DNA of 23,409 bases from a virus, in IMG/VR virus record IMGVR_UViG_3300031215_000070, positions 1 through 23,409 of that record. One strand, written 5' to 3'. The notes under the pieces are model-generated. The model worked only from the letters and a program-made list of their open reading frames with translations. It was not told the origin of the DNA and did no database searches. Positions within the stretch are counted from its first letter, which is position 1; the number at the start of each line of letters is the position of its first letter. The translations under genes and the position numbers were made by a program. Of the stretch, positions 5,104 to 21,341 are shown one piece after another.

Positions 5104-6645
5104 CTATGACAATAGTGAGTTCTTAATTCGGTTGATACTTTCATCCTTTCCAAGAATAACCATTGTAGTCATAAGATCTGGACCTGATACTCCACCAGTT
5201 AGAGCTTGTCTAAGACCCGGCATTACCTTTCCAAATCGATAACCTTTCTCTTTTACAGTTAATTTGTAAATGAGATCTTTAATTGGTTGACCTTCTTTAA
5301 AGTTTAACCCTTCGTTTTCAAGGTGAAAATCAAAGTTTGAGAATACATTTCTAAACTCATCATTAAACTTAGAAACATCAGTATAATTTTCAATTGGTTT
5401 TAAGAAGATATCAATAATAGTTGAGAGATCTTTTCTAAAAACAGCTCTTTCTTTAGCTAAATCTAGAACCATTTCTAACTTTTCAGTACCCCATTCTGAA
5501 ACTTCTTCAGATGTAAATACATCAGAGATACTTAGTTTATTCACATATTGTGAGTTAAACCAATTTAATTTCTTAATATCAAATCGACATCCTGCTTTTG
5601 ATACTCTATTCATATCAAAATCTTCAATCATTTCATCCATTGAAAGGATTTCTTTATCGTTAGTTGGTGTCCAGCCAAGTAAAGCAAGGAAGTTAACAAA
5701 TGCGTCAGACTCATAACCTTGTTCGTCATAACCTAACATATTCACGAGGTTACCTTTCTTATCTTCAACATCACATGTCAAAGGAAATACAGAGAAACCG
5801 TTAGTAATACCACTTCGTTTGGAAAGTTTACCTTTACCATTTGGGTTTAAAATTAATGGTAGGTGAGCAAATGTTGGTCGATCAAGTCCAAGAGCGTCAT
5901 ATAACATACAGTGTAGGCTTACACTAGGTAACCATTCTTCACCTCTAATTACATGAGTGATACCCATTTCATAATCATCAACAATGTTAGCCATATGGTA
6001 TGTAGGAATCCCATTCTTTTTCAAAAGAACTTTATCATCCATAACATTTGATTGAAGTTTAACTCTTCCACGAATCATATCATCAACTTCAATGATTTCA
6101 TCCTTTGGACAGTTAAATCGAATAACATATGGAGTCCCATTTTCTAACAATTCGTTTACTTCATCTTCTGATAGTGTGAATGAATTTTTCATATTCATTC
6201 TACTTTTTCGGTTGTAGGCAAAGTTCTTAACACCGTTTTCTTTCAACTCAGCTCGATAAGCGTCCAATTCTTCGGGTGTATCAAATGCGTAATATGCATC
6301 TCCCGAGTCAATTAGTTGTTTGATATATTTATCATAGATACCTGCTTCAGATCTTTCTGATTGTCTATAAAGACCAATATCTTCATTTGGATTCCAAGGA
6401 GATTCATCAACACTTATACCAACCCATTCCATAGATCTTTGGATGTAATCTTCTGCTCCTTCTACAAAACGTTTTTGGTCAGTGTCTTCAATCCTTAGAA
6501 GAAAATCACCGTTGTTTTGTTTTGCGAATAAGTAACAGATTAGAGCCGTCCTCAGTCCCCCTAAATGTAAATTTCCAGTAGGAGAAGGTGCAAAACGAGT
6601 TCTTACTTTTTTATCAGTTTTTAAAGTTTGATTTGTTTTTGACAT
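5104..6645 (-). CDS. gltX: Glutamyl-tRNA synthetase, class I, Bacteroidetes type
   Basis: The 513-residue protein is full length for bacterial GltX. The class-I HIGH signature is at residues 20-30 (PSPTGNLHLGG), with LRIEDTD and YRQSERSE following. VIRGEEWLPS lies in the Rossmann core, and the KMSKS-type loop is GKGKLSKR near residue 275. The sequence GFSVFPL after the loop, followed by an extra segment, and SKAGCRFDIKKLNWFN are features I associate with Bacteroidetes GltX. The enzyme charges tRNA-Glu in the cytoplasm using ATP. All core elements are present, so it is probably active. It has its own upstream spacer and terminator. No tRNA-Glu is visible in the window. A complete GltX in a phage is rare; it probably came from a host and may support translation late in infection or evade host tRNA damage. 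Confidence 0.97.
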   Translation of the reverse strand: MSKTNQTLKTDKKVRTRFAPSPTGNLHLGGLRTALICYLFAKQNNGDFLLRIEDTDQKRFVEGAEDYIQRSMEWVGISVDESPWNPNEDIGLYRQSERSEAGIYDKYIKQLIDSGDAYYAFDTPEELDAYRAELKENGVKNFAYNRKSRMNMKNSFTLSEDEVNELLENGTPYVIRFNCPKDEIIEVDDMIRGRVKLQSNVMDDKVLLKKNGIPTYHMANIVDDYEMGITHVIRGEEWLPSVSLHCMLYDALGLDRPTFAHLPLILNPNGKGKLSKRSGITNGFSVFPLTCDVEDKKGNLVNMLGYDEQGYESDAFVNFLALLGWTPTNDKEILSMDEMIEDFDMNRVSKAGCRFDIKKLNWFNSQYVNKLSISDVFTSEEVSEWGTEKLEMVLDLAKERAVFRKDLSTIIDIFLKPIENYTDVSKFNDEFRNVFSNFDFHLENEGLNFKEGQPIKDLIYKLTVKEKGYRFGKVMPGLRQALTGGVSGPDLMTTMVILGKDESINRIKNSLLS

Positions 6646-11300: not shown

Positions 11301-12171
11301 TAATGGTTTAACAGAAAATTCTAAACAACAACTTGTAGATATTTGTGGAGAAAGATTAGATTGTTTTGGTTTCATTAACATGCCAAGTATGAAACAATTT
11401 AAGAATTCAACTTCACCATCATTCGTTGATGATGAAGGAGTTCTACAAACAGAATTCATTAAACAAGGTGGTGACCCAGAAAGTAACCCAGCTTTCCTAT
11501 ACTCATTAGCAGAGGGAACGGGTGTTACAACAGTTGGTTATTTCGCACCTTACTTAACAGTGAATGATAACGGTAGACCATTGAGTTTCCCACCAGCAGC
11601 ATACGTTGCAAGTACATACCTTAGAAAGTTTAATACAACACAAACTAATATAAGACCTTGGACTGTTTCAGCAGGTGTAACTAATGGTCAGATAACAGGT
11701 ATCGCTGGTCTTGAGAAAGAATTTAACGGTGAAGATATTGAAAATCTAAATGAAATGAAAGTAAATCCAATAGTTTCTAAGAGAAATAGAGGATTTGTAA
11801 TAGAGACTGAAAATACAGCTCAAACGTTCGTTAGATCAGCACTATCATTTATTCACGTAAGAGAGGTTCTTATCGAGATCGAGGAAGAATTAGCAGCAAT
11901 GTTACTCAACTTCCAATGGAAGTTTAACACTCCAGAAGTTAGAGCTGAGATTAAGTTAAGAGCAGATGCTATTTGTGAAAAATACGTTAACCAAAATGGT
12001 TTATTCAACTTCTTTAACAAGATAGATTCAGAAAATAATACTGATGAGTTGATAGATAATCAAATTGGGGTATTAGATACATATCTTGAACCAGTTAAGG
12101 CTATGGGAATAATTGTTAATAACATTACAATCACAAGGACTGGTGGTATTGAATCTAGTGGATTTGCATAA
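8314..12171 (+). CDS. gp18: Contractile tail sheath protein, T4 gp18-like, greatly enlarged
   Basis: The 1285-residue protein begins MPEVQIGSFGRPGIYIREFG, the usual N-terminal strand and loop of T4-type sheaths. The N-terminal conserved part covers about residues 1-200. The C-terminal conserved domain, about 940-1285, contains FINMPSMK, the PPAAYVASTYLR region, SKRNRGFVIETENTAQTF and a helix with HVREVLIEIEEELAAMLLNF, followed by the final strand that links neighbouring subunits (MGIIVNNITITRTGG). T4 gp18 is about 660 residues, so this one is nearly double. The extra mass, about residues 350-900, is beta-rich, Thr/Asp/Asn-rich material that probably forms surface domains on the tail. It is in line with late expression (box at 8279) and ends in a strong terminator. 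Function is sure; the nature of the insertion is inferred. Confidence 0.95.
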   Translation: MPEVQIGSFGRPGIYIREFGDSVIETPIVEGIQNAVLGFAKKGPFNTPVVINNQTDLESIFGPIDRRLERKGSFFHRTISKLLESNPVVAINLLLTDDNLDTLEYQSFSTSTKNFNYVKKDGPYSRFFDRSGFWKKDTDSFNTLANEDPNADERILNFTNMGEKPISVFVFKSTQTGFDVDMISWYGSPDDIPLFVYPTDYVSDYMVDVVVLSGDWTDYQQLAVDSRWGNYFNSSGLIKSEVLNFINDPASSVLSYYQGLSLIPYFRDANGRDIFIENVINRDTDKNGLFCGYDIDAVQDTDYPTGLIDLIGNNLIATTQRDMPEEVNFLSYKDVVTDNVTFETKLLDTPGNVISYGSLYKGGTPSNPSLDRSAFYAENHVYDVTENSGLTTGFGATSGVPTLSTDITLEYQVGPDAYAVIGGQVLELETTATFSIDPSDYVDADDGANIEDATPYKSTVVVDNTGTIKMINNMTNDDNPTVATTDIVLGYVDFSVIKIGLTNSIVDERTKLTNVSVDSSGFVELQESVDFTVTFNGGEITWEFLGTAQAADPNEYEIYRIFKLFNNLLNLLGGPNKGEATLIIDGNIKASLDTMSVTDIETLTSVNKEFTLVTGLVETDMTDLGGNTSGTYNLLVYVKDDEFILGTDSLITTNQLPTTTQGIVAKYSDFYDKYRDGIINTKDFFYKNMIATEYDVDFVDFNGQDYIVFEDTTGINPIGFNTNDRVIIPDSEFNSDVFTITNNSNFINGLVTGGVYTSPTDRYAFRVTENVSGSSNDIKESISNVDRVWDANDLAYLKMYFDNSGILSVEFQDQLLQSTSPIDINNNIEITVVSQKTNFQQTVEIEVPAGYVQVPNKILVNGQRFTEVKIGDFLLADVDESQLEADEVAKRMTRILSKKVYPANTDLVEITTDASIKKYDFNGDLQTTRFTRIDDYITVYKGFRMNGFKVREASIPDGTEERQDDILNIVEKGSNMFKAITDKNVIDFRYLVDSFGNGLTENSKQQLVDICGERLDCFGFINMPSMKQFKNSTSPSFVDDEGVLQTEFIKQGGDPESNPAFLYSLAEGTGVTTVGYFAPYLTVNDNGRPLSFPPAAYVASTYLRKFNTTQTNIRPWTVSAGVTNGQITGIAGLEKEFNGEDIENLNEMKVNPIVSKRNRGFVIETENTAQTFVRSALSFIHVREVLIEIEEELAAMLLNFQWKFNTPEVRAEIKLRADAICEKYVNQNGLFNFFNKIDSENNTDELIDNQIGVLDTYLEPVKAMGIIVNNITITRTGGIESSGFA

Positions 12172-12236: not shown

Positions 12237-12519
12237 GTTTAAACACAATTAATTTATTTTACTATATATAGTAATGTTAAGTAGTGAATTTATATATGAA
12301 TTTGAGAATAATAATAAGTCTGGAAAAATGACCAAGGAAAAATATATCATTAAAAATTATAATAAAGACTATGATCATATTATTAATTTTTGTGAAAATT
12401 TAGATATTCCATTTAAACAGAAAGTTTATCATACAGTTAATAAAATAAAAAGTTACTTATTATGTGAAAACCCACAGTGTGAAAATAAAGTTAAGTTTAA
12501 GAATTCAAAATTGGGTTAC

Positions 12520-12616
12520 CTTTGATGATCCGCCGATCAGTGCTATTCAGTTTAGAATGTTGAATAAGAGTAAAGGTCCAGCGATGTGGTCGCCGAGAAC
12601 GCAGAATGATAGAATG
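12520..12616 (+). other. Foreign insert of about 97 bp: fragment of a bacterial mnmG (gidA) gene
   Basis: After GGT TAC (codons for GY of the zinc knuckle) the sequence changes to GC-richer DNA (about 44 % by hand count, well above the surroundings). It returns to phage sequence at CATAAATATTGT. The plus frame codes for IQFRMLNKSKGPAMWSP followed by RTQNDRM. This matches the conserved IQFR-LN-SKGPA … R-Q-DR segment of the tRNA-modifying enzyme MnmG/GidA, in the form I associate with Bacteroidetes. The ends are uncertain by a few bases (12523-12619 is equally possible). A length of 97 is what the reading frames on both sides require. Confidence 0.65.
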
Positions 12617-12765
12617 CATAAATATTGTAGTAATAAGTGTATAGGACTCGATCCAAAAGTTATTAAAAAAAGGAAGAGTCTAATATTAAAAAATATGGAA
12701 CAAAACACGCTTCCTTAAATAAAGATATAAAAGAGTGTGATGTTAGAGAAGTTAAGGATAACCAA

Positions 12766-13284
12766 GTGGTAATAGATTTTTTGAATAATAATCATATTCA
12801 GGGGTACTCAAAAAGTAAAATAAAGATGGGATTATTTTATGAAGATGAATTAGTTTCTCTGATGACTTTTGGTGATATTAGAATTTTTATGGGAAGTAAA
12901 GACCAAGAAAAAAACAATTATGAACTTATAAGATTCTGTAATGAAAAAGGGGTAAATGTTATTGGAGGAGCATCAAGATTATTTAAGAATTTTTTAAGAA
13001 ATTATAAACCCAATAAAGTCATATCATACTCTGATAATAGTTATTCAGATGGTAGATTATATAAGACATTAGGATTTGATATTAGTGAAAGTAAGGTTCA
13101 CTTAAATTACCATTGGGTTATTAATAAGAAAAGGGAACACCGATATAAATATAGAAAGTCGGTTCTTGTTAAAATGGGATATGATTCTAATAAATCTGAA
13201 AAAGATATAATGTATGAAGATGTAGGAGCTTATAGGGTATGGGGTTGTGGTAATAAAAAATGGTTATATGTTAATAAACTTTAG
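12766..13284 (+). CDS. C-terminal part of the endonuclease-like gene, open frame (172 aa)
   Basis: This is the longest intact piece of the broken gene; its frame is already open from 12691, and GTG 12766 is only the first usable start. It holds the family's C-terminal domain: MGLFYEDELVSLMTFGD, then YELIRFCNEKGVNVIGGASR, then NKVISYSDNSYSDGRLYKTL, and a basic region with HRYKYRKS. These blocks are familiar to me from many phage homing endonucleases that carry an N-terminal zinc knuckle and a KYG motif. Whether this piece is translated alone is unknown. It would lack the zinc knuckle. Confidence 0.6.
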   Translation: MVIDFLNNNHIQGYSKSKIKMGLFYEDELVSLMTFGDIRIFMGSKDQEKNNYELIRFCNEKGVNVIGGASRLFKNFLRNYKPNKVISYSDNSYSDGRLYKTLGFDISESKVHLNYHWVINKKREHRYKYRKSVLVKMGYDSNKSEKDIMYEDVGAYRVWGCGNKKWLYVNKL

Positions 13285-13360
13285 TATTAATATAGTGGAA
13301 ATATGAAATTTTCGAGTATGATCGAAACATTTGTACTAATATTATATAAGATTATTTTAT

Positions 13361-13384
13361 TATAGACAAAGGAAACTAATAATA
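13361..13384 (+). repeat. Right copy of the 24-bp degenerate repeat
   Basis: TATAGACAAAGG followed by AAACTAATAATA matches 12201-12224 at 22 of 24 positions by hand alignment, and also follows a TTTTAT stretch. Here the terminator arm is not preserved, so no hairpin forms. The rest of the 13285-13451 spacer has a small hairpin TTCGA/TCGAA (13311-13326) and the promoter-like box at 13414. Confidence 0.55.
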
Positions 13385-13413
13385 CTATAATATAAAAACC
13401 ATCTTATCAAAAT

Positions 13414-13422
13414 AATATATAA
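13414..13422 (+). promoter_or_regulatory. Putative late-promoter box (AATATATAA)
   Basis: Exact copy of the box found before the sheath and tube genes, 30 bases before the ATG at 13452. Confidence 0.4.
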
Positions 13423-13451
13423 TCTGAAAAATAATATTATGATTGTGATCT

Positions 13452-13955
13452 ATGGTTCATATAATACGTAAAAATACCCACAAATCTGATAATAGAAAAT
13501 TCAGATTGTTCCTTTTTAAAAAGAAAATATCACATAATGTTTTCTTTAATAATAACTGTGAATATAATTTAGATGGCATCGATCAATTTGATATTAATAA
13601 ATTATTTGGTATGTCATTTGGATTTCACCATAAAAATTCAGCAAGGTTTGGATGGAGGTGGTCGGAAGAAAATCAATCAATGGAAATATTAGCTTATGTT
13701 TATAGGAATGGTGAAAGAGTTAAGGAATGGGATGAGAATATAAAAATATGTAACTTAAAACCATTCGAAAGTGCTGAAATGTCAATTGATGTTAAAGATG
13801 ATAATTTCGTATTTACTGTTAAAAAATTAAATCCATATTCTACTTATACAACAAAGATAAAACATGGTAATTTAAAATTATGGGGTTATTATCTAAATCC
13901 TTATTTTGGTGGTAATAGAGAATCTCCACATGATATGACTATAATGTTAAGTTAA
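13452..13955 (+). CDS. Uncharacterised conserved protein with a C-terminal PYFGGN signature (167 aa)
   Basis: Plus-strand frame with ATG at 13452. After a basic head of about 25 residues it has DINKLFGMSFGFHHKNSARF, a Trp-rich stretch (GWRWSEEN), EILAYVYRNGERV, and ends with YYLNPYFGGNRESPHDMTIM. I recall the last pattern (PYFGG … PHD-I-T-I) from uncharacterised bacterial proteins, notably in Bacteroidetes. It suggests a single beta-sandwich domain. There is no signal peptide. Its own promoter-like box precedes it, and it converges on the next gene with a 9-base overlap of 3' ends. Function unknown; acquisition from a host is possible. Confidence 0.7.
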   Translation: MVHIIRKNTHKSDNRKFRLFLFKKKISHNVFFNNNCEYNLDGIDQFDINKLFGMSFGFHHKNSARFGWRWSEENQSMEILAYVYRNGERVKEWDENIKICNLKPFESAEMSIDVKDDNFVFTVKKLNPYSTYTTKIKHGNLKLWGYYLNPYFGGNRESPHDMTIMLS

Positions 13956-14663
13956 AGAAACTTCCACTTTTTCAGGTTTTTTATTTTTTAGTATAACATC
14001 ACATCTTTCCCTTCGTTGATAGAATTCTAAAAATTCTTTTTTATTGATTTGTTGAATTACATTATTAACATCATTAGATTCAGAATCCATATTTAATGTG
14101 GAATACTCACCATATGTTGTTTTAATGAAAAGTATGTTATTACTTTTAAATAAGTTTTCACTTGAAATAAACTTAATTTTTTTATTATGTGGTAATTTTT
14201 TTCTTAACCTCTTTCTTCTGTTGTATTGTTCCTCCATATCAGAAGTGATGACAAATCCCACATTCTGTATTTGTTTATTTTTAAAATAAAACCCACCCAC
14301 ATTCTGATAAAATTTACTTTGTAAGTTGTGTGAAAAACTAGTGTAAATCAATTCAATTTTATCTTCAAAGATTCCTTTAACCTTAGTACTATATAAGCAA
14401 AGCCCGGTTCTATTTTTTATTATATGAATAACTTGACATAATCTATCAAAATTAAATAAATCCTTATCAATTAGTATTCCCATTCTATCAAAAAGAACAC
14501 TTAAATCAACACCAATACACTTTTCTATCTTATAAGTAAATTCACGAAAAAAGTAATCATCCATGAATGAACCTATATCAGTATCGAGAAGTTGATCTCT
14601 TGTGATATGGTAATCATCTAATAATATGTTTTCGATATGTTCAGATATATCTTGTAGTCTCAT
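13947..14663 (-). CDS. Unknown protein (238 aa)
   Basis: Minus-strand frame from ATG 14663, convergent with the gene at 13452 and divergent from the gene at 14763. The first 90 residues are helical and acidic (MRLQDISEHIENILLDDYHI; IGVDLSVLFDRMGILIDKD). The centre is mixed, with FYQNVGGFYFKNKQIQNVGF. A basic patch (YNRRKRLRKKLPHNKKIK) lies near residue 150, and the C-terminus is Lys-rich. No motif I can name. It is the only minus-strand gene between the sheath and the tube other than spacers. The N-terminal layout slightly recalls small phage structural or regulatory proteins. Confidence 0.65.
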   Translation of the reverse strand: MRLQDISEHIENILLDDYHITRDQLLDTDIGSFMDDYFFREFTYKIEKCIGVDLSVLFDRMGILIDKDLFNFDRLCQVIHIIKNRTGLCLYSTKVKGIFEDKIELIYTSFSHNLQSKFYQNVGGFYFKNKQIQNVGFVITSDMEEQYNRRKRLRKKLPHNKKIKFISSENLFKSNNILFIKTTYGEYSTLNMDSESNDVNNVIQQINKKEFLEFYQRRERCDVILKNKKPEKVEVSLT

Positions 14664-14731
14664 TTTTTAATCTAAAATAGATATTTTACACCATTTACCA
14701 AAACGAAAATTAAAATCTAACTTTATAATAT

Positions 14732-14740
14732 AATATATAC
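14732..14740 (+). promoter_or_regulatory. Putative late-promoter box (AATATATAC)
   Basis: One mismatch from the recurring box, in a TATAATATAATATATA run almost identical to that before the sheath gene, 22 bases before the ATG at 14763. Confidence 0.45.
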
Positions 14741-14762
14741 TTTAAGAAAAATAATTAACGAT

Positions 14763-15242
14763 ATGAAAATTCATAAAAAAATAGGTAATTTTTTAGAATC
14801 ATTAAATGAAAATGTTTCATCTGAACTCGATTCTGAAACAATATTACACATACTAAATCTTAAAATAGATGAAAAGATAGATGAAATCGAAGATGAAAAT
14901 TCTAGGACTATGGGAATTGGTATCGGTGAATCTAAAATCAGTATTCTTAATTGGGTGAAAGGTGTTATTAGTGATTTCGAAAAAACAAATGAATCTAATG
15001 ATAAGGGTATGGAACAAAAAGAGAATGTAAACGAAAGTAATGAGCCAGATTATAGAGACTATTTCATGGGTAAATTAGAAGAATTCGAAGCTGATTCTCC
15101 AGCTGACCTTACTAAAGATCAATGGGAAGAAATCAACAGAGGATGGACTTCAGAAGATGAAGGAAATTATCATACTTTTTTCAGAAATAAAATGGAAGAA
15201 TTTGGAGCTGATTCACCAGCTGATATGACTAAAGAAGTTTAG
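14763..15242 (+). CDS. Acidic phage protein with two copies of an EEF-ADSPADLTK repeat (159 aa)
   Basis: The protein starts MKIHKKIGNFLESLNENVSS, similar to the N-terminus of the next gene product (KTFIQFNEGN). After a helical part and an acidic linker come two repeats: YFMGKLEEFEADSPADLTKD (about 102-121) and FFRNKMEEFGADSPADMTKE (about 139-158). The second repeat ends abruptly at TAG 15240. Another frame continues past it (LDLSMKDENPEEL) to a TAA at 15278 that overlaps the next ATG as TAATG. This suggests that the original gene was longer and suffered a small frameshift. It is likely late-expressed (box at 14732), and a virion or assembly role is inferred from place only. Confidence 0.7.
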   Translation: MKIHKKIGNFLESLNENVSSELDSETILHILNLKIDEKIDEIEDENSRTMGIGIGESKISILNWVKGVISDFEKTNESNDKGMEQKENVNESNEPDYRDYFMGKLEEFEADSPADLTKDQWEEINRGWTSEDEGNYHTFFRNKMEEFGADSPADMTKEV

Positions 15243-15279
15243 ATCTTTCTATGAAAGATGAGAATCCAGAAGAATTATA

Positions 15280-15609
15280 ATGAAAAAAAATAATAACAAT
15301 ATCAAAACATTTATTCAATTTAATGAGGGAAATGATCACGATTTCTTAGATCCAAAATTATGGTCAAAGATGAAATCAGTTATGGATGATATTGATTATG
15401 ATATGTTAAAGTATGAAATCGGTTCGTCTTATTATGATGAAGATGATGATGATTTTGAAGATGAATTAGACTACTATGAATCACATACCCATTTTACAGA
15501 AGATGACTTAATAGAAGAAGTTACAAGTCGTATTAGAATGGGTTTAAATATTAAAGATATTGATAAATATAGACAAAGAATTGAAAACTATATAGAGAAA
15601 TATATTTGA
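15280..15609 (+). CDS. Highly acidic small protein of unknown function (109 aa)
   Basis: Plus-strand frame with ATG at 15280. After a Lys/Asn-rich start comes IKTFIQFNEGNDHDF, matching the N-terminal pattern of the upstream gene product. The centre is extremely acidic (YDEDDDDFEDELDYY), and the C-terminus is helical (RIRMGLNIKDIDKYRQRIEN). It may be part of the same transcript as 14763-15242. T4-like phages process N-termini of core proteins after (I/L)-x-E, and a site near FNE|G would fit loosely, but this is speculative. No family recognised. Confidence 0.65.
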   Translation: MKKNNNNIKTFIQFNEGNDHDFLDPKLWSKMKSVMDDIDYDMLKYEIGSSYYDEDDDDFEDELDYYESHTHFTEDDLIEEVTSRIRMGLNIKDIDKYRQRIENYIEKYI

Positions 15610-15663
15610 AAAGTTTAACAAAATGTAACTTAAATCCCTGATAATAGGGGAATAATGAGTTTT

Positions 15664-15679
15664 AATATATAATATATAA
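15664..15679 (+). promoter_or_regulatory. Double late-promoter box of the tail tube gene
   Basis: Two overlapping exact copies of AATATATAA (15664-15672 and 15671-15679) lie 30-37 bases before the tube ATG. Upstream, CCCT and AGGG around 15637-15651 can form a weak hairpin that I do not call. Confidence 0.5.
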
Positions 15680-15709
15680 AATTAAGAAAGAAAAAATAAT
15701 TAAAAAGAT

Positions 15710-16303
15710 ATGCCTTTACCACATTTCACCCAACTTCAATCAACTAATGTAAACTTTGAACCAGTTTATCCTTCGTTGTTTGAAATAACATTTGTTTTAC
15801 CAACTTTACTTCAAGAAGAAGGAAGAGATCCTTTAGTGATGTTGGAAAATGCTACTAATGTAACTTTACCACTTACTCCAGACATTACACCTACAGAACA
15901 AAGATTCAAGTTCTCTACAAGAAGATATTTAACACTTCCTGAGAGCACACACATGGACTTTGATATTAACTTTAATTTAAATGTTAATGAAGATGGTGCT
16001 GTTTTTATTTGGAACACATTAAAGAGTTGGTATGATAAAGTATGGAACTCTCAGAACGGATCAACAATGTACAAAAGAGACCTTGTTGGTACAGTAGTAG
16101 TTAACCAACACGATAAAAAAGGTTTTGTTATAAGACGAGTAACATATCAAAATGCTCAGTTAATGGGTATTGGTGAAATAGCTCTAGATTGGACAAATAA
16201 TACAAGTATTGTTGAGCCAGTTCAAGTTAACTTTACAGCTGATTACTGGACAGATGAGTACATTGATAATGACTTTGAAATCACACCTGATAACATACTT
16301 TAG
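15710..16303 (+). CDS. gp19: Tail tube protein, T4 gp19-like
   Basis: At 197 residues it is the size expected for a T4-type tail tube (T4 gp19 is about 163). Residues about 15-35 (NFEPVYPSLFEITFVLPTLL) form the typical first strands. The middle carries FKFSTRRYLTLPESTHMDFD and INFNLNVNEDGAVFIWNTLK with WYDKVWN, the conserved tube core. RDLVGTVVVNQHDKKGFVIR is followed by NAQLMGIGEIALDW and the closing strands with VNFTADYW. It stacks as hexameric rings to form the inner tail tube surrounded by the sheath encoded at 8314. In T4 the sheath and tube genes are adjacent; here about 3.5 kb of accessory genes lie between. Double late box upstream. Confidence 0.93.
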   Translation: MPLPHFTQLQSTNVNFEPVYPSLFEITFVLPTLLQEEGRDPLVMLENATNVTLPLTPDITPTEQRFKFSTRRYLTLPESTHMDFDINFNLNVNEDGAVFIWNTLKSWYDKVWNSQNGSTMYKRDLVGTVVVNQHDKKGFVIRRVTYQNAQLMGIGEIALDWTNNTSIVEPVQVNFTADYWTDEYIDNDFEITPDNIL

Positions 16304-16321
16304 AATTAAACTGGTAACAAA

Positions 16322-16621
16322 ATGAAAAAAAACAGCATTATATCAGATTGGTTAGCCCAGAACGGTGACCCAGAAATAGACCAATTTGTAGAAAAAAACC
16401 TTGCCATTACCGAAAAAGTGAGGAATAAACTTATTTTAAAAGGATGGAACAATGGAGACTTAGCCAAAGCAATGGGTAAATCTCCTTCAGAAGTGTCCAA
16501 ATGGCTTTCGGGTATGCATAATCTCACCTTAAAAAGCATCATAAAAATGGAGCGAGCTTTGGAAACAGAACTTATCCATTGTGAACCAATTAAAGAATTT
16601 GAATACTATAATATTAAATAA
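16322..16621 (+). CDS. XRE-type helix-turn-helix protein, probably host-derived (99 aa)
   Basis: The start MKKNSIISDWLAQNGDPEID and ITEKVRNKLILKGWNNGDLA are characteristic of a family of solitary HTH proteins common on Bacteroidetes chromosomes, often the antitoxin half of HigBA-like pairs. The HTH covers about residues 36-85, with KSPSEVSKWLSGMHNLTLKS as recognition region. The gene is GC-richer than its neighbours, which suggests recent acquisition. It lies 18 bases after the tube gene and is followed by a strong terminator, so it probably rides on late transcripts. No toxin partner is next to it. DNA-binding is confident; its target is unknown. Confidence 0.85.
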   Translation: MKKNSIISDWLAQNGDPEIDQFVEKNLAITEKVRNKLILKGWNNGDLAKAMGKSPSEVSKWLSGMHNLTLKSIIKMERALETELIHCEPIKEFEYYNIK

Positions 16622-16633
16622 TAATTATAAGTT

Positions 16634-16664
16634 CCCCATAGGATACGTTCTATGGGGTTTTTTT
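16634..16664 (+). terminator. Intrinsic terminator after the HTH gene
   Basis: CCCCATAG (16634-16641) pairs with CTATGGGG (16650-16657) across an 8-base loop, followed by seven Ts. It ends the tube-HTH transcript; its T-tract overlaps the stop of the convergent gene at 16663. Confidence 0.85.
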
Positions 16665-17124
16665 AATCCTTATTCTTATTTTTAATATTCTCTTTAGCTA
16701 TATGAAACATTGTAACCTTTTTATCTGACATTCCAATTGGACACTTTTGGAAGTTATGGAAATTAAGTAATGTTTCATAATCTTTTATATTGTCGATATT
16801 GATAAATAACTTTCTTTTATTTGTAACAACTAAATTTTTCAAATCTTTTTTATCTAATATCTTAGGGAGTTTATTTAAACTAATAGAATGTTTTTTAAAT
16901 AAAGAAATTACATTAGAATCTATTTTATTTTCTTTACCATCTAGTATTTGTGATAATCTTTTCTCTCTTTTAATTGATTTTAATGTATCCTCACTTTCCA
17001 ATGTGTATGTTATGAGGGTATCCTTTTCACTTCTCATTTTCATTTTAGCAAAATGAAGAGCTTTATATGGTTTTGATAATTTACTTCCGCTTTTAACTAC
17101 GTATAATTTCTCAGGTACTTTCAT
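16663..17124 (-). CDS. Unknown basic protein (153 aa)
   Basis: Minus-strand frame from ATG 17124, convergent with the HTH gene. The protein is Lys-rich throughout (MKVPEKLYVVKSGSKLSKPY; ALHFAKMKMRSEKDTLITYT). After a Lys-rich middle it has KLFINIDNIKDYETLLNF and a C-terminal MSDKKVTMFHIAKENIKN. It has no membrane span and two Cys at most. The pattern at the start (beta strand, then a helix after LHFAK, then strand) resembles small phage alpha-beta proteins, but I cannot assign a family. It stands alone between two late plus-strand units. Confidence 0.65.
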   Translation of the reverse strand: MKVPEKLYVVKSGSKLSKPYKALHFAKMKMRSEKDTLITYTLESEDTLKSIKREKRLSQILDGKENKIDSNVISLFKKHSISLNKLPKILDKKDLKNLVVTNKRKLFINIDNIKDYETLLNFHNFQKCPIGMSDKKVTMFHIAKENIKNKNKD

Positions 17125-17192
17125 AGGAATTATATAAAATGGAATTATATTTGTTTATTTATTTATTTTAATAGAGGAAGAGGGTTAAATAC

Positions 17193-17201
17193 TATATATA
17201 A
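17193..17201 (+). promoter_or_regulatory. Putative late-promoter box variant (TATATATAA)
   Basis: One mismatch from AATATATAA, 28 bases before the ATG of the gp26-like gene. The surrounding ACTATATATAATAATATT is the only clear box in the 105-base spacer. Confidence 0.4.
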
Positions 17202-17229
17202 TAATATTAAAAAAATATCCTTAAAAATT

Positions 17230-18195
17230 ATGGGCGACGATAATAAAAATAATAAACAAGACAAGAGTAACAGTAAGAAAGATGACTTTCTTAGAAGTTA
17301 TATTGAAGAAACTGATGTGAACAATAAGTCTGAAAATGAAAAAGCTTTCAAAGACAATATTAAATCAGATAGTACTGAAAGAGCTTCGGAACTAGAATAC
17401 TTCCATTTTGATACAAAAGATTTACCACTAGGAGCATTTTACCCTAATGGTACAAAGGTAATGGTAAGACCAGCTAAAGTTAAAGAGATCCAATCTTATT
17501 CAATGGTTGATGATGATAACTTTTACGACATTGTAGAAAAAATGAATGATATGATTGCATCATGTGTAAGAGTTAAATATGCTGATGGATCTATGGGATC
17601 TTATTTAGATATCAAAGATGGAGATAGATTCTATTTGATATTTTTAATTAGAGAGTTAACTTTCCAAAAAGGAAATGGACTTTTTGTAAAAGCTAAATGT
17701 TCATGTGGTGAAACTAATGAAATTGAATTAGGCAGAAAATCATTTGTTTTTCATGAAATGGATGGTGATTTAGAACCTTATTTTGATCAAGGTGAAAAAG
17801 TATTTTACTTTGAAACACGAAATGATGATGTGTTCACATTAGCTCCACCAAATATTGGAATTCAGAAGAGCTTTACAACTCACATTATTGAAGATTATAA
17901 AGAGAAAAATCCACCAAATATGAGCTTCTTGAAAGTAATACCATTTACACTTACTGACAGAAATAACATATCTAGTGAAGGTATTAAAAAGAAATTAAGA
18001 GATTATCAAAATTACAATATGGAATCTTTCCAATTCTTAAATGCGGCAGTAGATAAAATGAGGTTTGGTATCAAACAACTAAAAACAGTATGTTCTTCAT
18101 GTAACACTGAAGTTTATACAGACATGGTGTTTCCCAGAGGAGCCTCAGGTATTTTCGTTGATGACAATTCCTTTGACAAGTTTATTAAAAAATAA
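17230..18195 (+). CDS. gp26: Baseplate hub protein, T4 gp26-like, with zinc-ribbon cysteines
   Basis: The 321-residue protein has a charged, disordered head of about 55 residues. A domain typical of the T4 gp26 baseplate family follows: DLPLGAFYPNGTKVMVRPAK, KVKEIQSYSMVDDDNFYDIV, and DGDRFYLIFLIRELTF. CSCGETNEI and, near the C-terminus, CSSCNTEVYTDM provide four to five Cys that could bind one Zn ion. The size exceeds T4 gp26 (208 residues). In T4, gp26 is part of the baseplate hub and its assembly path. It is separated by 7 bases from a small acidic protein gene, which might be a partner or chaperone. Late box upstream; terminator after the pair. Confidence 0.82.
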   Translation: MGDDNKNNKQDKSNSKKDDFLRSYIEETDVNNKSENEKAFKDNIKSDSTERASELEYFHFDTKDLPLGAFYPNGTKVMVRPAKVKEIQSYSMVDDDNFYDIVEKMNDMIASCVRVKYADGSMGSYLDIKDGDRFYLIFLIRELTFQKGNGLFVKAKCSCGETNEIELGRKSFVFHEMDGDLEPYFDQGEKVFYFETRNDDVFTLAPPNIGIQKSFTTHIIEDYKEKNPPNMSFLKVIPFTLTDRNNISSEGIKKKLRDYQNYNMESFQFLNAAVDKMRFGIKQLKTVCSSCNTEVYTDMVFPRGASGIFVDDNSFDKFIKK

Positions 18196-18202
18196 GGTTT
18201 TA

Positions 18203-18412
18203 ATGTATAAACACTATAATCTACAAGATTCAACAATAGACAATTGGGCATTTTGGATGTTTGAAGAGGTTGTGAAGATCATAAATGAGATTGTAGAAGA
18301 GGAAGATAAACAACAAAAGAAGCAAAAAGAAGAACAATCTTCTGGTATGGGTAACCTTAACCCATCTTCTTATATGAAGTCCATGAGTAGTATGGCAAAT
18401 AAGTTTAAGTAA
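18203..18412 (+). CDS. Small acidic coil protein downstream of the gp26-like gene (69 aa)
   Basis: I start at ATG 18203 (MYKHYNLQDSTIDNWAFWMF), 7 bases after the upstream stop; the frame is open to 18158 but that start overlaps the gp26-like gene by 38 bases. The first 35 residues form an amphipathic helix (FWMFEEVVKIINEIVEEEDK), followed by a Gln/Lys/Glu coil and a Ser/Met-rich tail (MGNLNPSSYMKSMSSMANKF). Co-transcription with the baseplate gene suggests an assembly partner. Not recognised as a known family. Confidence 0.7.
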   Translation: MYKHYNLQDSTIDNWAFWMFEEVVKIINEIVEEEDKQQKKQKEEQSSGMGNLNPSSYMKSMSSMANKFK

Positions 18413-18461
18413 CAATAACGAAATACTAGGCAACCTGTTAAGGATAGATAAATACAAAATA

Positions 18462-18494
18462 AAAAGAGAGATAGAATTAGTCTATCTCTCTTTT
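18462..18494. terminator. Strong bidirectional terminator
   Basis: A perfect 14-bp stem, AAAAGAGAGATAGA (18462-18475) with TCTATCTCTCTTTT (18481-18494), with an ATTAG loop. It has Ts at the 3' side on either strand, so it closes the baseplate transcript and the minus-strand block beginning at 20967. Confidence 0.85.
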
Positions 18495-18538
18495 CTAATT
18501 AAATAATCTCCCATTTTTTATAAATTTAAAAATAAAAT

Positions 18539-18756
18539 TTATTTAATATCTTTTTGTGTGACTGGTTTATCACATTTAGGACATTTAACATAGCCCACCT
18601 CATCGTTAGGAGATTATATCGCTGCTTTCAGTAATGAGTATGCAGGTATGTATTTCGGCTCTCCTGGAGCAGTCGAGGTAGAGGAAGACCCGATTCAGGA
18701 ATAGATGTATAATCAAACTCATTTTTACAATTAGGACACACAGATATATTACCCAT
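18539..18756 (-). pseudogene. Zinc-ribbon protein gene broken by a foreign insert
   Basis: ATG 18756 opens MGNISVCPNCKNEFDYTSIP, the first half of a zinc ribbon. The matching second half, GYVKCPKCDKPVTQKDIK with TAA at 18539, is in another frame about 100 bases downstream. The two CPxC knuckles belong together as a double-knuckle ribbon of about 38-40 residues. Between them lies GC-richer sequence that shifts the frame and brings a stop (TGA) into the first. The total length, 218, leaves a multiple of 3 if 98 bases are removed. The gene begins 5 bases after the stop of the upstream gene and would have been co-transcribed with it. Confidence 0.6.
18608..18705 (+). other. Foreign insert of about 98 bp, end of a bacterial-looking gene
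   Basis: The plus frame reads GDYIAAFSNEYAGMYFGSPG then AVEVEEDPIQE and TAG, which looks like the C-terminus of a cytosolic or membrane protein, on the strand opposite to the gene it interrupts. GC is near half by eye, far above the surroundings. The exact ends are uncertain by a few bases; 98 fits the reading frames of the broken gene. I do not recognise the source gene. The size is close to that of the other insert (12520-12616). Confidence 0.5.
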
Positions 18757-21055: not shown

Positions 21056-21190
21056 TCATTTGAACCTTCTATAGATAAAATAGAAGAATCAAAACAAATA
21101 CTAGATAATTTAAAAGCTGAAAAGGAAGAAAGGGAAAAATCAGTTTCATATATTTATTTAGTTTTTTTAATAAGAAAAACCAAGTGTTAG
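21056..21190 (+). other. Coding-like remnant without a start codon
   Basis: Between TAA 21053-21055 and TAG 21188-21190 the plus frame is open and reads SFEPSIDKIEESKQILDNLK then AEKEEREKS, a typical charged coiled-coil, with no ATG, GTG or TTG at its front. Its composition is that of real protein. It may be the 3' end of a gene whose front was lost. It overlaps the promoter-proximal end of the tRNA-like RNA. Confidence 0.3.
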
Positions 21191-21341
21191 GAATCGAACC
21201 CAAAAAACTCCGTTTCGATGAATTGCCATTAGTACTTATCAGCTAACAAGTTTAATTGTGGATTTGCACCACTACGCATAATTCCCAGCCATGCTGTTAG
21301 ACATATCACCTATTTGTTACCACTCCAGAGTAACCACTTGG
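21180..21341 (-). ncRNA. Unusual tRNA-like structured RNA (about 162 nt)
   Basis: On the minus strand the 5' end CCAAGTG (21341-21335) pairs perfectly with the 3' end CACTTGG (21186-21180). The pair is extended by AAAA/TTTT outside. The 3' end is preceded directly by a T-arm, TTGGG-TTCGATT-CCTAA (5 bp with one G-U), exactly as in tRNA and tmRNA. Just after the 5' arm is a perfect 5-bp hairpin GTTAC/GTAAC with TCTGGAGTG in its loop, in the place of a D-arm. The 110 bases between hold no normal anticodon arm. Instead there is a multi-branch part: CTAACAG with TTGTTAG closing hairpins GCAT/ATGC and GTGG/CCAC, the latter with TGCAAAT loop. It is too short for a normal tmRNA and too long for a tRNA. 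Confidence 0.5.

Follow-up and report, generated by a model that had tools for sequence, protein, structure and literature searches.

Short composite inserts with pieces of Bacteroidota genes in two broken small genes of a Mahaphage-like megaphage

How do scraps of bacterial genes come to lie within broken genes of a giant phage? The question is raised by a 23,409-base fragment of a virus record (the whole stretch of DNA that was analysed, hereafter the window), in which two inserts occur within 6 kb of each other. A first-pass annotation had ascribed both inserts to one process, either the uptake of host DNA during break repair, a size-limited capture system or chimeric assembly. The underlying observation of two host-derived inserts mostly holds and is partly confirmed here. 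Both inserts lie, as annotated, in small genes, identified here as an endonuclease-like gene and a zinc-ribbon gene, and both are richer in GC than the phage (0.44 and 0.46 vs 0.283). GC content alone does not mark them out, since a value of 0.46 is also found within the sheath gene.

The phage and its closest records

The window is derived from a Mahaphage-like megaphage. Its tail tube protein showed 57% identity to that of a 642-kb uncultured phage and lower identity to those of other huge phages, Sphingomonas phage PAU and Tenacibaculum phages. For Mahaphages over 634 kb, Bacteroidetes are the predicted host (PMC7162821). The phage of the window is a giant phage of Bacteroidota-type bacteria. 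The window also contains a phage-borne glutamyl-tRNA synthetase gene at 5104-6645 on the minus strand (tRNA-synt_1c, Anticodon_2); this enzyme has been described in Bacteroidetes huge phages (PMC7162821).

The closest record is another IMG/VR contig (L001/G001, from IMG metagenome 3300031269), which has 21,070 bp in common with the window and differs by 2 substitutions. Next come L002/G002 (78% identical) and L003 (71%). Further contigs of the same population were sought via the capsid protein, and none appeared among the 80 matches listed. Both inserts are base for base the same in L001. When 2.9 million viral contigs were scanned for exact patterns, the inserts were found in the contig of L001 only; the insert pieces, for which viral contigs were searched with peptides as well as exact patterns to find them in other phages, likewise gave this contig alone. 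In a phage collection, the insert pieces matched complete gidA genes, annotated as such, or records that carry no annotation.

Two other features of the window were recorded. An HTH gene (HTH_3) at 16322-16621 on the plus strand has a Bacteroidota chromosomal protein as its best relative (58% over 93 amino acids) and no DNA match in L002 and L003; judged from these comparisons, it looks like an intact gene from the host lineage. At 21181-21341 on the minus strand, tRNA-like ends (CCAAGTG...TTGGGTTCGATTCCTAACACTTGG) enclose about 160 nt, which is too long for a tRNA, and neither ARAGORN nor Rfam gave a match there; the region may represent a degraded tRNA gene or one that contains extra sequence. 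In two long relatives, ARAGORN identified a tRNA with the anticodon CTA, labelled Pyl (G015, 370132-370204; G011, 121630-121702), a possible amber suppressor.

Inserts in an endonuclease-like gene and a zinc-ribbon gene

Insert 1 lies in a decayed homing-endonuclease-like gene (12274-13284, plus strand), which was delimited from two open reading frames (12274-12525 and 12766-13284), the alignment with L002 and the homologues L263 and L264. An intact relative of this gene combines DUF7487 with an MTES_1575-like nuclease (Pfam). Besides insert 1, the copy in the window carries a frameshift, and about 0.8 kb present in L002 is missing from it; with these defects it is dispensable.

The insert itself occupies 12520-12616 on the plus strand. 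L002, 78% identical, could be aligned up to position 12518 of the window and resumed at 12618, with 2 bases between. Joined directly, the flanks in the window read ...KFKNSKLGY-HK-YCSNKCIGLDP, and the homologues with an intact site read ...KFKNSKVGY-YN-YCSNKCIGLDP (L263) and ...NFINSTLGY-RD-YCSNKCISSDP (L264). Because GY-YN-YCSNKC and GY-RD-YCSNKC in the homologues match GY-HK-YCSNKC in the joined flanks, insertion of the net 97 bp cost no codon. The target is otherwise continuous, as seen in L002/L263 and L264; the edges can slide by a single base, and the phage gene resumes codon-exact. Target-site duplication and terminal repeats were looked for at insert 1, and none was found; a search for flanking direct repeats was likewise negative. 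Insert 1 is a clean insertion: when the target was opened and closed again, nothing was lost and nothing duplicated.

Several known kinds of element do not fit. A transposon or integrase does not account for a site with neither target-site duplication nor terminal repeats, nor CRISPR-like spacer capture for one that lacks flanking direct repeats. Three findings speak against a group I intron or other RNA element: Rfam gave no match at the inserts, they folded no better than shuffles, and with 97-98 bp they fall well below the size of a group I intron.

Most of insert 1 (12539-12616, 78 bp, plus strand) is an internal piece of the mnmG (gidA) gene of Bacteroidota, recognised by Pfam as GIDA (E=1e-6) and 92-96% identical over 26 amino acids in the best Bacteroidota matches. 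Among 396 Bacteroidota genomes, 214 gave a match, with the alignment beginning at residue 6-8 among the matches listed. Employing a profile of 54 mnmG sequences, we found the match to be sharp at both ends of the piece. The 19 bp upstream of it (12520-12538; GC 0.53) are without a match in this profile and are not mnmG; templating of these bases from the phage's own DNA was no better supported than that of shuffles.

Insert 2 splits a small zinc-ribbon gene (MGNISVCPNCKNEFDYT...GYVKCPKCDKPVTQKDIK), which was recognised by six-frame reading at 18542-18756 on the minus strand and has no intact-site relative in IMG/VR or the phage collection. Based on the donor profile, the insert extends on the plus strand from a left edge anywhere between 18597 and about 18608 to position 18705, and its length is therefore about 98-109 bp. 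Of the two frame-fixed lengths in the first-pass annotation, 97 is a measured net length, whereas 98 is one of several frame-compatible lengths of insert 2, which is without an intact-site relative and in which donor homology may reach 18597. No edge slide of the kind at insert 1 was seen at its tested, uncertain edges.

The donor part of insert 2 (18597-18674, plus strand, 69-78 bp) is an internal piece of a PLP-dependent decarboxylase-like gene of Bacteroidota, identified from Bacteroidota loci (L032-L059), a phylum search and a profile, and assigned to PF00282 through the Pfam match of a donor relative. Homology starts at 18597-18606 and ends at about 18674; past GAV, the conserved residues of the donor, including an invariant tryptophan, are unmatched. 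The remaining DNA up to the right junction (18675-18705, about 31 bp; GC 0.48) is GC-rich and not from the donor gene, and in this case too templating from the phage's own DNA did no better than shuffles. The TAG in insert 2 is not the stop codon of the donor, because it lies inside these unmatched bases, beyond the end of donor homology. The bacterial coding content that had been annotated is therefore borne out for both inserts as coming from the inside of a gene, and the proposed gene end in insert 2 is not.

Both inserts contain DNA of a bacterial chromosome, and each is composite, consisting of a donor piece of 69-78 bp and of 19-31 bp of GC-rich DNA that does not match the donor. The resemblance that had been proposed between their right edges (ATGYATAA) proved weak: this pattern has 7 matches in the window vs 3.9 expected, and 11 of 100 shuffles also reach 7.

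Search for further scraps and scars

A possible third event was found at 21071-21142, where 72 bp in the window correspond to an unrelated 64 bp in L001/G001 between identical flanks. The origin of either patch was searched for and not found. Because the patch is 43 bp from the end of the L001 contig, an end artefact is possible. Four other near-identical pairs of relatives (G009/G010, G021/G022, G007/G008 and G016/G017) showed no patch swap; the gaps between G014 and G015 lie between short, partly low-identity repeat matches.

Further host scraps were sought in DNA of related phages (about 3.2 Mb) by tblastn and by scans for clean insertions, and nothing comparable was found. In the tblastn search, about 1,090 Bacteroidota open reading frames were compared with two sets of such DNA, of 1.8 Mb and 1.43 Mb; the bait drew on about 40% of a single, distant Bacteroidota genome and on the loci around both donor genes, and with this limited coverage the negative result carries moderate weight. 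Together, the searches yielded ordinary in-frame indels (low-complexity linkers), repeats and distant domain matches only. In the window itself, a six-frame Pfam scan returned GIDA at insert 1 and ordinary genes but no other scrap, at a sensitivity limited by the fact that the decarboxylase piece is below the reach of Pfam.

Other rearrangements were seen in the relatives. In L002, a broken RNA-ligase gene (11875-12060; G002 1756-2020) has the stretch around motif I (about 100 bp) inverted in place, whereas G011 has the intact order; this piece had been considered as another foreign insert and was rejected as such. A stretch of 121 bp in L321/L322 (14189-14309) is absent from L319 between 100% identical flanks, and as other relatives possess it, the gap in L319 is a deletion. 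In G018, a GC-rich (0.47 vs 0.23) insertion of 30-43 bp is present at 11736-11765 in comparison with close relatives at 90-99% identity.

Origin of the inserts and known systems

The inserts are probably best explained by non-homologous end joining in which short composite pieces of host DNA became trapped. Double-strand breaks would arise in phage DNA, for example through homing endonucleases or the defence nucleases of the host, at a time when host DNA is being degraded into a pool of short fragments. In joining the ends, an ATP-dependent DNA ligase would then catch one or two of these fragments between them. Such insertions would have survived because the small genes that they hit were dispensable, as with the decayed endonuclease gene. 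Long relatives of the phage do encode an ATP-dependent DNA ligase. Ku was looked for in the relatives and not found, so that we infer rather than observe the joining machinery.

Much of the evidence is consistent with end joining. The site of insert 1 is clean and intact in two homologues, with no target duplication, and the junctions lack homology between donor and target. Both donors are Bacteroidota, and the largest Mahaphages are predicted to infect this phylum (PMC7162821). The inserts are composite with sharp donor edges, and their unmatched GC-rich pieces (0.53 and 0.48) are not copies of phage DNA. The neighbouring patch at 21071 differs between the two records, L002 bears an inversion scar, and the second record repeats both inserts exactly. 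Of the mechanisms proposed at first, uptake of host DNA in break repair therefore fits best; the interpretation in the first-pass annotation is, as a whole, partly supported. Against end joining, there are only two clear events, and two scraps within 6 kb are surprising for a random process when none was found in about 3.2 Mb of relatives. An active recurrent process in this lineage, patching breaks with about 65-110 bp of host or other DNA, is doubtful. If it were true, patch turnover would have to be fast enough for patches to differ across 2 substitutions in 21 kb, and the process would be a mutational route for the uptake of host sequence by megaphages.

An assembly or library artefact, in which chimeric reads or local errors produced the inserts and the second record arose from the same or from related reads, was the alternative to be examined first, and we consider it unlikely. 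Local assembly errors without read support have been documented in metagenome contigs (PMC7111523), as have concatenation artefacts in IMG/VR (PMC7162821). An oddity clustered in one population, with no other case in the relatives, would also suit an artefact, as would a patch so near the end of the L001 contig. A chance assembly chimera is nevertheless made unlikely by the identical repetition of both inserts in a record with two substitutions and one differing patch over about 21 kb, although the two records may share reads. The codon-precise resumption of the phage gene at site 1 and donors from the likely host phylum also argue against it, and with an overlap of 1 base the junctions have no common k-mer to mislead an assembler.

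Template switching, in which the replication or recombination machinery of the phage copied a short host stretch and then returned, would also produce composite content, and the in-place inversion in L002 is typical of it too; with a one-base edge overlap at insert 1 and uncertain edges at insert 2, we regard it as improbable. We give very little credence to a dedicated size-limited system, akin to an integrase or an adaptation system, for the insertion of host pieces of about 100 bp. In its favour are two inserts of about this length within 6 kb, whose donor pieces measure up to 78 bp, and a patch swap between nearly identical genomes, but there is no target duplication, flanking repeat or convincing shared edge signal, the second length is uncertain, and no further cases were found in the relatives searched. 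The least probable explanation is that the inserts have been retained because they serve a function, for example as antisense RNA directed at mnmG or the decarboxylase of the host. Both donor pieces are well-conserved coding stretches, but conserved donors are simply the recognisable ones; moreover, relative to the broken phage gene the mnmG piece is in sense and the decarboxylase piece in antisense orientation, and no structured RNA was found at the inserts.

If the inserts are real, such very short scraps of bacterial genes are direct traces of homology-free uptake of host DNA and of the repair of breaks in infected cells. Should they prove to be artefacts, they would show that small insertions in uncurated viral contigs, however clean they look, must be backed by reads before they are interpreted.

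In plants, yeast and mammals, non-homologous end-joining junctions may contain filler DNA, short unrelated pieces that are often composite. The inserts resemble filler DNA in being short, unrelated, composite pieces at putative repaired breaks; they differ in that site 1 shows no loss of target and in the phage setting, with no recognised Ku. They share with metagenome assembly errors (PMC7111523) the appearance of unexpected sequence at a single spot of an otherwise good contig, but are identical in two records and followed by codon-exact resumption of the gene. As cited in PMC8136500, Giles 2008 described phages with host DNA joined without homology. The present phage likewise carries host DNA joined in this way, whereas its pieces are under about 80 bp, composite, two within 6 kb and located in broken small genes of a megaphage. 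The inserts are thus not a new system but an unusually short, composite and closely spaced case of the host-DNA capture already proposed for phages.
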